Assembly (NCBI RefSeq): GCF_009690625.1
Contig: NZ_CP033878.1
Span: 1,178,001-1,242,000, forward strand
Direction: 5' to 3'
Length of the DNA: 64,000 bases
Origin: Halorhabdus sp. CBA1104
Lineage (GTDB): Archaea > Halobacteriota > Halobacteria > Halobacteriales > Haloarculaceae
This document shows positions 49,079 through 53,155 of the stretch, one piece after another; within the stretch, counting starts at the first letter, position 1; each line of letters starts with the position of its first letter. The notes under the pieces were generated by a model. The model had not been told where the DNA came from, ran no database searches, and saw nothing but the letters and a program-made list of their open reading frames with translations. Made by a program: the position numbers and the translations under genes.

Positions 49079-49425
49079 TCGTCTGTCCCACCAGTAGCCA
49101 CCCGAAACGTAAAATCACCATGCCGGCAGCGACGACCCGCTCGTGGCCACGAGGGAGACGACTCACCGCCGGACATTCGTCTCCAGTCTGCCGATTGTCC
49201 GACCCAAGTCTGACGGTGATTTATATGCAGTCCACAGCGACGATGTGACGGGGGCACCCGAAACGTCACACGCTCCCCTTCCCTTCGTTCTGAGACCGTG
49301 CCGATCGACGAAACTCACCGTCGCTGCGTTCAGCCGTGCGAAGAGTAAGGGAACGCTTTTGATTGCTCTTGTCGAACAGTGTTCCAGATTACGGCCCTCG
49401 AAGCCAGTTGTGCCCTCCAGAAAGC
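49079..49425. other. Divergent region between GNAT and CHAT genes
   Basis: No gene seen. A TATA-like TTATAT at 49221-49226 is followed by an inverted repeat TGTGACG (49244-49250) / CGTCACA (49264-49270). From there to the CHAT ATG are more than 150 bases, so either the CHAT mRNA has a long leader or another start is used closer to the gene. The repeat arms resemble an operator. Confidence 0.45.
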
Positions 49426-51555
49426 ATGGACGCCGACGCATCGTTGCCACAGCCGCGATACGAATTGCTCGACGGACCCCCGGGTATCCGATTCGTCGAT
49501 CCGATCGATGGCGGCCAGTTCTCACTGTTTACCCAAGCGCCGTGTGAGCCAGTCGAGCGATCGACGGACGCCCTCCCGATACCGATCGACACAGCCATCG
49601 AGATCGGTACACCGACGCTTCAGACGCCGTATCTCGTCGGCGTCTGGGTTCGGGACAGTGAGTTTACGCTCGTCGATCAGTGTACGGGTGGTGAGACCGT
49701 TTCCCTGGAGCACGGGGAGTATATCGTCGAGTTCTCGGCCGTCCAGTTGAAGGTGTATCTCGGGGTCGAGGGTCCCTTCGAGATCGATGCGACCGGCGAG
49801 GCAGTGACGTTTTCGTTCGAGCAGGCGTCTGAGGTGGTTCTGGGCGTTCGCTCGTATCACGAGCAGCCAGCCCGTACGATCACGACGACAACGGATCCGC
49901 GTGACCTGATGCACGCAATCTCGCAATTTCGTGCGTCGTTGCTGACCAGGAGTCCCGAACGTTCGTTCCCGACCTTACGTGGGCACCCACCGTTGCTCGA
50001 ACTCGGCGAAGAACTATCCATCCCGGCCGGTTCGGCCCTCTCGGAGCCATCGGCCTTTATCGAAGTACCAGTCAGATGGGATCGCATATTGCCCGTCACG
50101 TCGCTGGCGTATTATTTGGATGGGGCAGTAGTTCCCGGCCGGGAGCCGCGACTGGTTGTCGATGGTGAGACGTTTCCCCTCAGTGGTCCGGCGGGATTCG
50201 AACAACGCGTCGAAGCCATTCTCAAACACGTCTTCGCGCTCGATTGCATCACGCGCACCGAAGGTCTGTACGACGTCGAGTTGCACGAACGCTCACTCAT
50301 CGAAGACCGGGTTACCCTCGACTTTGCCGAACTGTACGACGCCCCGATCGCCGACCGAATCTCGGCGTACATGGACGTTCCCTTCGACGTCGTTGCACCG
50401 GCAGTCCCCGAGTGGAAACTGACAGCCGATGTCGAGCCCGATCCAGACAATATCCCGGTATTGCCGTTCCTGGCCTCTGATCTCGCCGTTATCCGAGTGC
50501 CAGAAAGCGACGACATCGAATCTCGCACCATCGAAGACACGTCGCCGGACATCGAGACGTTCTTCCGGGAAGATCCAGTCTTGGTCCGTGGACAGACGAG
50601 TGTCGACCGCTCGAGCGCCACGCCCGAGGGCGCGTCAATCTCGGATCGGGTGTTCCACCCGGAGCCCACCGACAGCCTGATACAGACGTTCGTCGGTGAG
50701 GGGATCCCGGTGGGCGCGACGAAGATGACCCCCACGGCGTTTCGCCGACGGCTGGCGTACGAACCAGCCGAACCTGGGCGGATCCAGATCGACGTCGTGA
50801 ACAACGAGACAGCGATGAGCGAGGAGTCGGCCGTCTCTGACGTTTACGGGACCCGCGAGTGGATCGACTTCGACATTTCTGTCCACACGGAACTGACGAA
50901 AGCGGAACTCACCGAGGTCCTCGAAACCGAGACGGACTTCTTCCACTACATCGGTCACGTCGAGGACGAGGGCTTTCGCTGTGCGGACGGCCACTTGGAT
51001 GCGGAAACGCTGTCCGACATAGACGTCGGGGCGTTCCTGCTCAACGCCTGCAGGTCCTACGACCAGGGACGGGCGCTCGTCGACGCCGGCGCGCTCGGCG
51101 GCATCGTCACGCTGGCGAACGTGCCCAACCCCACGGCCACCGAGATCGGAAAGAACCTGGCGCGGTTGTTGAATACTGGGTTCTCGATCGCGAATGCGCG
51201 TTCAGTACTGGGGGAAGATGAAAAGTTAGCAAACCGATATTTAGTAATAGGTGACGGAAATGCGAATATCGTGAAGAGTAAGATTGGAAGTCCTGTTCTT
51301 ATGCAGATTACTGCAACATCGGATGAAACGATCAATTACGATATCAGGGGGTTTCCATCTCCCAACCACTCGGTGGGTGGATTAAGAACCTGGAATGTTG
51401 ATCTCCCCGTTGGAAATTGTATCAGCCCGATGTATATTACGGATATTGAGATTACAAAAGAGAAATTTAGACGTATCTGCGAAAAAAATGATTCTCCACT
51501 AATTTTTGACAGTGAATTGGTGTGGAGTACCGAGTTCCTAAACGGTCGAATTTAA
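49426..51555 (+). CDS. CHAT-domain (caspase-like) cysteine protease, haloarchaeal type
   Basis: 709 residues. The C-terminal half is a CHAT domain: catalytic His511 in FFHYIGHVEDEGFRC and Cys542 in FLLNACRSYDQGRALVDAGA, followed by GGIVTLANVPNPTATEIG, spacing 31 residues as in caspase-like enzymes. The N-terminal ~480 residues are beta-rich, without TPR repeats and without a recognised domain; they may sense a signal. No signal peptide or membrane helix. The last ~115 residues are encoded by DNA near 40% GC while the rest is near 60%, a sharp break inside the gene. The stop overlaps the convergent 46-residue membrane-protein gene. Confidence 0.78.
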   Translation: MDADASLPQPRYELLDGPPGIRFVDPIDGGQFSLFTQAPCEPVERSTDALPIPIDTAIEIGTPTLQTPYLVGVWVRDSEFTLVDQCTGGETVSLEHGEYIVEFSAVQLKVYLGVEGPFEIDATGEAVTFSFEQASEVVLGVRSYHEQPARTITTTTDPRDLMHAISQFRASLLTRSPERSFPTLRGHPPLLELGEELSIPAGSALSEPSAFIEVPVRWDRILPVTSLAYYLDGAVVPGREPRLVVDGETFPLSGPAGFEQRVEAILKHVFALDCITRTEGLYDVELHERSLIEDRVTLDFAELYDAPIADRISAYMDVPFDVVAPAVPEWKLTADVEPDPDNIPVLPFLASDLAVIRVPESDDIESRTIEDTSPDIETFFREDPVLVRGQTSVDRSSATPEGASISDRVFHPEPTDSLIQTFVGEGIPVGATKMTPTAFRRRLAYEPAEPGRIQIDVVNNETAMSEESAVSDVYGTREWIDFDISVHTELTKAELTEVLETETDFFHYIGHVEDEGFRCADGHLDAETLSDIDVGAFLLNACRSYDQGRALVDAGALGGIVTLANVPNPTATEIGKNLARLLNTGFSIANARSVLGEDEKLANRYLVIGDGNANIVKSKIGSPVLMQITATSDETINYDIRGFPSPNHSVGGLRTWNVDLPVGNCISPMYITDIEITKEKFRRICEKNDSPLIFDSELVWSTEFLNGRI

Positions 51556-51692
51556 GGGCCTAAAGTAACATCTGCGAAGTCGGCCGAGGCCGCGCCCATC
51601 TGTGTCAACAACACGAGCAGCATGAACAGGACGCCGATTAGTCGCGGGTGCTTTGCCAGGAAGGCCGTTTCCGCCGATTCTGATTGGCTCAT
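51552..51692 (-). CDS. 46-residue single-span membrane protein (DUF7503-like)
   Basis: Start MSQSESAETAFLAKHPRLIG, then the helix VLFMLLVLLTQMGAASA and a short acidic end DFADVTLGP. I recall very similar tiny haloarchaeal proteins catalogued as DUF7503 (pattern K/E-x-P-x-h-I-G-V-L-F..h..L.Q.G.A.A). The gene is convergent with the CHAT protease and the two stop codons overlap. It is too short for automatic gene calling in many pipelines. Role unknown; a substrate, sensor or membrane-active partner of the protease is possible. Confidence 0.65.
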   Translation of the reverse strand: MSQSESAETAFLAKHPRLIGVLFMLLVLLTQMGAASADFADVTLGP

Positions 51693-51944
51693 GGCCGCCT
51701 ACGGGTTTTTCCAAAAGTCATAGTGTATTTCTAAAGGTATTTAATACTAATATAATTAATATAAATGCAAGATTCGTATAGGATATCCAGCTAATCCACC
51801 CAATGTGACAGTATCCCTACTATTTTCAATTATATAAGAGCGAAATGGGGGGTGCCGAAAGGTTCTTAATTGTTAGTAATGTAATCGATCGCAAGGACCA
51901 GGGATGACCGAAAAACGCGCAATTCGAAGACGAGAGGGGCACAC

Positions 51945-52535
51945 GTGAGCGACGATCACGCGCCGAAGGGTGGCGACGGGACGGCAGCAAATGTGCTCTG
52001 TGCGTGCCCAGCCATCGGGAACGCGAAATCCGATCACTGCCGGGACTTGCTGACGCGGTCCGGACAGCCAGGGACAATTCTTGGCGTGACGATCGCCTCC
52101 TCACCCGGGGAGCGCATGAGTGAGTGGAGTGGCGTGATCGATCCCGTGCAAACCGACCTCTCGTTTATCAACGTCTCCGATGGCGGCCGGTCGGCAGCCA
52201 TGTCGGCTGACGGATTTGGCGGCCAGCACGGCGCGATGGTCAACATGGTCGAAATCGACAGCGTTGACCTCCAGCAGCTCGGGACCCAGATCACAACGCA
52301 GCTCGATGAAGCAACAACCGAGCCGGTGGTGCTCTGTCTGGACTCGCTGACGGATCTGTTACAGTTCGGATCCGAGCAGACGATCCATCGCTTCCTCAAC
52401 GTCATCACGACGCGGGTTGGAGAGGCCGACGCGATCGCCCACTACCATATCGATTCAGAAGGCCACCCCGCCGCGACGATCGAGACGCTGACGCCGCTGT
52501 TCGACACCACAATCCAGGGAAACGAATCGCTGTAA
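51945..52535 (+). CDS. KaiC/RecA-like protein without P-loop (DUF7504-like)
   Basis: 196 residues, GTG start at 51945; a 14-codon frame from ATG 51904 ends across this start. Walker-B-like strand VVLCLDSLTDLLQFGSEQ and the following RFLNVITTRVGEADAIAHYH match the KaiC/RecA fold, but the N-terminal P-loop is replaced by CACPAIGNAKSDHC, which lacks GKT/S. So it probably binds rather than hydrolyses nucleotides. Similar haloarchaeal proteins (recalled as DUF7504) sit next to sensory and HalX genes, as here. Confidence 0.65.
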   Translation: MSDDHAPKGGDGTAANVLCACPAIGNAKSDHCRDLLTRSGQPGTILGVTIASSPGERMSEWSGVIDPVQTDLSFINVSDGGRSAAMSADGFGGQHGAMVNMVEIDSVDLQQLGTQITTQLDEATTEPVVLCLDSLTDLLQFGSEQTIHRFLNVITTRVGEADAIAHYHIDSEGHPAATIETLTPLFDTTIQGNESL

Positions 52536-52624
52536 GTCACAGTCAAGAGAGGACGTTTCTGTCACACGCACGCAGATCGAAGTGCCCGATCATTTTTGTC
52601 CTCGCCAGGGTATGCTTCGGTACG

Positions 52625-53155
52625 ATGGCCGCGCCGCCCGACGTCGTGTTGGTATACGCACCCGACGAGACGAAGCGTCGATCGATCACGACGGCCCTTC
52701 GAGACCGCTGGTCGGTCCGAACTGCCACAACGCCAGAGGCAGCCGCCAGCAGTCTCGACGAGACGATCGCCGTGGTCGTCGGGACCGACGGCACCAGTAT
52801 CGAAGACCCCCGCACGAACAGCCCCAGCGAGTGCGATCACATACAATTACTGTGGCTCGCCAGCAGCGAGGCCGAGGTCCCAGCCAGCGGCGGCAACGTG
52901 CTTGCTGACGATGTTTCAGCGGATGCGCTTCGACAGACCGTCGCTCGACTCCATCGACGCGCGCGGTACGATCGACTGCTCACGACGTGTTACGAATTGT
53001 CCCGTGCGCGAAGCGAAGCGAAAGCGGATGAGTCGGCGTCGGCGGAAGATATCGCGGCGGGCGATCGTGAACTCGAATCGGTACAGCGCGACCTGGACGA
53101 ACTCACAGCGGAGTTAAACGACGTCGAGGCGTTCGACGTGGCACTCGACGAGTAA
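52625..53155 (+). CDS. Degenerate receiver with HalX domain
   Basis: 176 residues. N-terminal ~105 residues have a receiver-like strand-helix rhythm (VVLVYAPDETKRRSITTAL, IAVVVGTDG, HIQLLWLASS) but the acidic pair and the phosphorylated Asp are not in place. After it ARYDRLLTTCYELSRARSEA is the HalX core (R-Y-D-x2-L-x7-L), then a charged coiled-coil-like helix ending DE. HalX domains are found only in haloarchaeal response-regulator-like proteins. Probably a phosphorylation-independent adaptor. 89 bases after the KaiC-like gene on the same strand. Confidence 0.7.
   Translation: MAAPPDVVLVYAPDETKRRSITTALRDRWSVRTATTPEAAASSLDETIAVVVGTDGTSIEDPRTNSPSECDHIQLLWLASSEAEVPASGGNVLADDVSADALRQTVARLHRRARYDRLLTTCYELSRARSEAKADESASAEDIAAGDRELESVQRDLDELTAELNDVEAFDVALDE

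Follow-up and report, generated by a model that had tools for sequence, protein, structure and literature searches.

A widespread haloarchaeal gene pair of a CHAT-fold protease and a Gly-Pro-ended miniprotein points to an undescribed protease-peptide switch or signalling system

Genes at the locus and genomes compared

CHAT proteases are relatives of the caspases, and their natural partners are known in few systems. Here we describe a locus of Halorhabdus sp. CBA1104 in which the gene for a CHAT-fold protein lies tail to tail with the gene for a 46-residue miniprotein ending in Gly-Pro, and we follow this pair through the haloarchaea. The locus lies in a window of 64,000 nucleotides (the whole stretch of DNA that was analysed; positions 1,178,001 to 1,242,000 of contig NZ_CP033878.1, assembly GCF_009690625.1) from a host genome of 2.63 Mb on a single contig, and the coordinates below are those of the window. 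An earlier note, made from the DNA alone, had listed four open reading frames (ORFs), for a CHAT protease, a tiny membrane protein, a KaiC-like protein without P-loop and a receiver fused to HalX; all four are present as it described them. The CHAT gene (49426..51555, plus strand) encodes 709 residues from an ATG, and its reading frame is still open 5' to a TTG at 49363. The miniprotein gene (51552..51692, minus strand) converges on it such that the two stops share 4 nt. The leuC and leuD genes adjoin the locus, a position that is conserved within Halorhabdus.

The samples compared are rich in Halobacteria. The CHAT protein and the miniprotein, which belongs to the Pfam family DUF7503, were sought in 293 sampled genomes of the order, and 79 named loci were found independently from the CHAT sequence alone. 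Main-type and paralogous CHATs are referred to as clade A and clade B, respectively, labels coined in the present analysis; the tree clade that holds all main-type CHATs also takes in 8 sequences first treated as paralogues (support 0.986).

Fold and active site of the CHAT protein

Profile searches say little about the 709-residue protein. It has no match to the Pfam CHAT profile (PF12770), one of 10 relatives reached 12.9 bits (gathering score 24), NCBIfam and PADLOC returned nothing, and RefSeq mostly labels its relatives 'hypothetical' and now and then 'CHAT domain-containing' or 'caspase family'. Searching the PDB by sequence with a profile of the family gave zero matches, and a fold search was therefore needed. 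The AlphaFold2 (AF2) model, with 91 orthologues as input, has a predicted local distance difference test score (pLDDT) of 89.4 and a predicted template modelling score (pTM) of 0.91. In this model a beta-rich region at the N-terminus (~10-155) is followed by an alpha/beta region, then by the caspase/gingipain-like region (~328-655) and finally by an extension at the C-terminus. Using Foldseek and VIA-align we found that the model matches clan CD peptidases, with RgpB as the best match (Z 18.7, over residues ~328-655), followed by SAVED-CHAT and DdvA (both 15.7), separase (15.1) and the TPR-CHAT protein of Craspase (14.8). Judged by the modelled fold and its motifs, the protein is thus predicted to be of the caspase/gingipain/separase-type CHAT fold, and the earlier note's call was right although the Pfam profile misses it.

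The two catalytic residues lie exactly where they had been proposed, i.e. His511 in an HYIGH motif (codon 50956..50958, plus strand) and Cys542 in an LNACxSYxQG motif (codon 51049..51051, plus strand). None of the 109 aligned relatives deviates at either position, nor at His507, Gly510, Asn540 or Ser544, and because of this invariance the enzyme is probably active.

A CHAT homologue is present in 268 of the 293 genomes. Halobacterium salinarum has the CHAT gene, and Haloferax volcanii has both DUF7503 and DUF7504 (the family of the KaiC-like protein at the locus). No CHAT protein was found in phage records, and a search of open-licence papers for CHAT in haloarchaea gave nothing relevant. As separate observations, an intact pair at one locus (L065:5002-5784) has next to it a truncated CHAT copy that faces a DUF7503 of its own, which suggests duplication and decay, and distant relatives from elsewhere in the phylum (L156-L159; G300, G309, G318 and G327) form one family, a possible origin of the haloarchaeal one, with no convincing Gly-Pro partner.

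The DUF7503 miniprotein and its C-terminal Gly-Pro

The miniprotein passes the Pfam DUF7503 profile (PF24335; E 4e-17, 61.9 bits, gathering score 27). According to an alignment of 101 copies, family members consist of a leader, an invariant Pro within H/N-P-R/K, a hydrophobic helix, an Ala and 7-9 residues that close in Gly-Pro. In the window copy the helix covers residues 18-37 after the HPR motif (51582..51641, minus strand) and is followed by the C-terminal core DFADVTLGP (51555..51581, minus strand), in which variable residues precede the near-invariant C-terminal dipeptide. Gly-Pro constitutes the last two residues in 164 of 173 copies. Every one of the 16 GGN-CCN codon pairs is used for it, and all three stop codons follow it; this variety therefore indicates selection at the protein level, and a DNA-level or terminator cause was rejected on these grounds.

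Comparisons between close relatives, based on simple counts that are partly saturated and come from overlapping pairs, gave a ratio of nonsynonymous to synonymous differences (pN/pS) of 0.21 for leader plus helix and 0.67 for the seven residues preceding Gly-Pro; for the terminal Gly-Pro itself pN was 0 although pS was 0.55. Moreover, a signal-peptidase-I-like site, the helix followed by small residues, precedes the tail in 100 of the 101 copies.

Both DUF7503 and DUF7504 are Pfam families of unknown function, and neither name appeared in any of the open-licence papers searched. The DUF7503 profile misses divergent forms and the repeat forms described below. At one CHAT stop, on the Halorussus salilacus plasmid NZ_CP099994.1, a DUF7503-like ORF ending in Gly-Pro is missing from the gene table (L280:6258-6425), and small partners of this kind may be under-annotated.

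Linkage and co-occurrence

DUF7503 was detected in 249 of the 293 genomes: in 249 of the 268 that carry CHAT and in 0 of the 25 that lack it. The genomes that carry CHAT but lack DUF7503 nearly all belong to Haloplanus or have no CHAT other than a distant paralogue. Genomes are not independent samples and no P value is therefore attached to this co-occurrence. At the 79 CHAT-seeded loci DUF7503 lies tail to tail with CHAT in 71, with the stops mostly -4 to +6 nt apart; 52 have DUF7504 no more than 4 kb from CHAT, 38 of them upstream on the same strand; and a HalX-like homologue is present in 25. The earlier note had itself named a lack of linkage in other species as the refutation of its proposal, and here the four families are linked. 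In a partly DUF7503-seeded set, 98 of 109 CHAT genes have a tail-to-tail DUF7503. The linkage of the module genes is far beyond chance, and since gene order within the module varies, functional coupling is favoured over mere inheritance.

Two loci depart from the tail-to-tail arrangement. A DUF7503 copy in G223 (L120:7017-7193) has no CHAT homologue within the surrounding 14 kb and is either an orphan partner or a remnant, while at L069 (10705-10845) DUF7503 lies ~2.7 kb downstream of CHAT and not at its stop, where an insertion may separate the pair.

Repeat forms of the partner in Haloplanus

In Haloplanus (12 genomes) the site facing CHAT holds a normal DUF7503 at three loci, L266 (MSESDSGTVATYLKNNPRMMGVLFTMLLLLSQAGTVAAGNSGAISGP), L269 and L272. 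At the others it encodes a soluble protein whose leader is similar and whose membrane helix is replaced by tandem copies of the tail, e.g. MTADGNGSGISGP or YTADGNGGGISGP. The number of tail units is 2 (L275), 4 (L267), 6 (L270), 7 (L264 and L271), 10 (L273), 13 (L265) or 14 (L274). These proteins have the repeated cores behind a leader that define a tandem-core precursor; in the window copy there is one core. All repeat units end in Ser-Gly-Pro, and the repeats have neither a secretion signal nor dibasic sites. Successive units differ mostly at synonymous positions (67 synonymous against 11 nonsynonymous differences, 46 against 3 and 23 against 2; these are counts between neighbours and not independent events). 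Because the repeat forms lack HPR, this motif was rejected as a universal cleavage site. In one further repeat precursor (L268:3564-4286) the middle part is masked by N in the genome sequence, and mis-assembly may affect long tandem cores at other places as well.

CHATs that face a helix-type and a repeat-type partner are up to 89% identical (89% for L269/L267 and 88% for L272/L275), and it therefore appears, as judged from these comparisons, that the form of the partner has switched more than once in Haloplanus. Likewise, since tandem tails replace the helix, we infer that the helix is dispensable and that the C-terminal core is the functional part of the miniprotein.

Other Gly-Pro-ended partners

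At clade A loci that lack a Pfam-like DUF7503, other short ORFs ending in Gly-Pro often converge on CHAT at a stop distance of 0 (e.g. L199, L201, L218, L232, L060, L066 and L071). The paralogous clade B CHATs served as control. In one clade B family a convergent Gly-Pro ORF is present in 11 of 11 sampled loci; these ORFs mostly have 39-61 codons for amino acids, are non-hydrophobic and end in [KR][RG][VI]S[ST]Y[GSR]GP. Another family has three loci with HPR plus a helix plus a ...TGP end. Overall, 17 of 204 ORFs near clade B CHAT stops end in Gly-Pro, compared to a base rate of 0.8% (P ~2e-12). The remaining clade B loci, like related CHATs elsewhere in the phylum, have no convincing partner of this kind.

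DUF7504 and receiver-HalX proteins

The KaiC-like protein (51945..52535, plus strand; 196 residues from a GTG) passes the Pfam DUF7504 profile (PF24336; E 7e-34, 118.4 bits, gathering score 27). Its AF2 model (pLDDT 86.5) has a RecA/KaiC/FlaH-like fold with PH0250 as the best Foldseek match. DUF7504 thus shares the fold of the KaiC/FlaH RecA-like ATPases but not their P-loop: Walker A is absent from the window protein and from the relatives listed from an alignment of 63 homologues, in keeping with the earlier description. DUF7504 is a probable regulator. Three more DUF7504 genes (L277, L278 and L279) are located at distant sites of the host genome (G000), with no Gly-Pro-ended ORF in their short flanks.

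The last of the four genes (52625..53155, plus strand; 176 residues) encodes a degenerate receiver with a HalX-like C-terminus. The phospho-acceptor Asp is missing, as had been noticed; the HalX assignment is weak in this copy (PF08663, 11.4 bits, gathering score 23.2), and some orthologues from the corresponding loci in other families retain the phospho-acceptor (LLDRRMPD) together with a HalX-like tail. With 25 of 79 loci, receiver-HalX is an occasional member of the module and not part of its core.

Discussion

The comparisons of sequences and predicted structures lead us to lean, if only slightly, towards a haloarchaeal protease-partner module in which CHAT recognises a dedicated miniprotein through its C-terminal Gly-Pro core and cleaves this partner when activated. 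A cytosolic CHAT cysteine protease, which has no evident export signal, would be paired with the convergently encoded miniprotein and recognise its ~7-9 flexible residues together with the obligatory Gly-Pro end. In most species the segment of HP[RK] plus hydrophobic helix would tether the core at the membrane, while in Haloplanus the leader would instead carry 2-14 soluble tandem cores. DUF7504, in some lineages together with receiver-HalX, would pass on the signal by which the protease is switched, and the activated protease would most likely cut the miniprotein, as Craspase cuts Csx30, such that the tail is released or destroyed. Physical binding, cleavage and its site, the direction of control and the biological output are what we infer here. 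The earlier note's general idea, in which the miniprotein is either a target or a gate of the protease, is supported; its emphasis on a membrane protein is not, since the repeat-type partners in Haloplanus are soluble and the Gly-Pro ORFs of the paralogues are non-hydrophobic.

Craspase offers the closest parallel in having a CHAT-fold protease with a dedicated partner (Z 14.8 for the fold). Recognition of Csx30 depends on the C-terminal region of that protein, and cleavage occurs at positions that differ from one orthologue to the next (PMC11106740); a partner whose end is fixed and whose adjoining residues vary agrees with this. The haloarchaeal module differs in that the N-terminal half of CHAT has no recognised TPR, in that the partner is a peptide of 40-60 residues or of tandem repeats whereas Csx30 is a large protein, and in being near-universal whereas Craspase is patchy. 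No RNA-guided effector (gRAMP/Cas7-11) was seen among the named neighbours in the window or at two annotated loci that were viewed; no systematic search for one was made. HetF, a CHAT protein of heterocyst-forming cyanobacteria, has a role in development or cell division and needs its active site, and the peptide gene patS belongs to the same pathway (PMC8406250). It differs from the protein studied here in having its own membrane segment and TPR. To our knowledge HetF has no Gly-Pro partner.

Several points weigh against recognition followed by cleavage. Many clade B CHATs, e.g. L144-L146, L149, L169, L170, L173 and L175-L178, have no recognisable Gly-Pro partner nearby; the helix with its signal-peptidase-like site could bring the tail to the exterior, where a cytosolic protease would not reach it; the variability of the tail could be that of a mere spacer; and no scissile residue is conserved across all partner types. 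The last point also speaks for a second explanation, which we regard as possible though well short of probable, namely that the miniprotein is not cleaved and inhibits or anchors CHAT in the manner of a securin or prodomain: its tail would sit in the active site or a docking pocket and keep the protease silent at the membrane until a DUF7504/HalX signal frees it for other targets. An invariant C-terminal dipeptide behind a variable linker rich in G, S, T and N resembles an anchored tail, tandem copies would raise the inhibitor dose, and the fold relatives separase and gingipain are restrained by securin or prodomains. On the other hand, convergent transcription provides no obvious dosage coupling, and the strict identity of the Haloplanus units exceeds the needs of a spacer.

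The miniprotein might also be the precursor of a peptide signal. A near-universal haloarchaeal signalling system in which CHAT matures or senses a species-variable, Gly-Pro-ended peptide of ~9 residues, whose precursor would be anchored in the membrane with one core or, in Haloplanus, be soluble with up to 14 tandem cores, is in our view on the unlikely side; we are aware of no archaeal peptide signal of this type that genetics has identified. We rate slightly lower still the specific version in which DUF7503 is a signal-peptide-like carrier of a species-variable peptide of 8-9 residues and CHAT its maturation protease or intracellular receptor. A conserved leader before a hypervariable core, with a tail pN/pS ~3x that of the leader, is consistent with such a precursor, as is the signal-peptidase-I-like site found in nearly every copy, and the Haloplanus tandem cores recall the Kex2-processed repeat proteins of fungi (PMC7329392). 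With these and alpha-factor-type precursors Haloplanus shares tandem identical cores that diverge mostly at synonymous positions, but its units end in Ser-Gly-Pro, without secretion signal or dibasic sites, and the candidate protease is CHAT. The missing export signal of the repeat forms argues against a secreted peptide, as do the non-hydrophobic clade B partners, and no dedicated exporter was found, though none was searched for. Moreover, the one characterised haloarchaeal density signal, that of Hfx. volcanii, is a small molecule resistant to proteinase K (PMC12240190); as a possible link to the CHAT module it was set aside as unrelated on present evidence.

The earlier note had suggested signalling or defence, and it is the defence part that fares badly. 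In bacterial CHAT-gasdermin pairs the protease gene adjoins the gene of a membrane-active partner, and the haloarchaeal CHAT gene likewise adjoins that of a membrane-type partner. By analogy with these bacterial proteases, a signalled CHAT could cut the miniprotein and thereby permeabilise the membrane; the helix of the usual partner and the presence of some module copies on plasmids would agree with this. The partner is, however, a single-helix protein of 46 residues without a gasdermin fold, and a suicide or pore role appears very unlikely to us because the protease is near-universal, keeps its place beside leuC/leuD within Halorhabdus and is absent from phage records, because PADLOC has 0 families for all four proteins, and because the helix can be lost entirely in Haloplanus. 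Finally, that the Gly-Pro ORFs are non-functional products of chance or of a conserved convergent terminator deserves next to no credence, since, although their stops lie only a few nt from that of CHAT, in a place where signals in the DNA itself could be conserved, they use every Gly-Pro codon pair and all three stops, their leader and helix are constrained, their profile is found in 249 genomes and their repeats vary synonymously.

Taken together, the gene pair points to a widespread protease-peptide switch or signalling system that has not been described. A CHAT protein that has its own partner, marked by two invariant residues at the C-terminus, is present in roughly nine of ten sampled haloarchaeal genomes, including those of the tractable Hfx. 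volcanii and Hbt. salinarum (in the latter as the CHAT gene), and the exchange of a helix for tandem cores in Haloplanus constitutes a natural experiment on which part of the partner matters. Four 'hypothetical' genes would thus become a testable switch, which would open regulated proteolysis in archaea, and possibly peptide signalling, to genetics.

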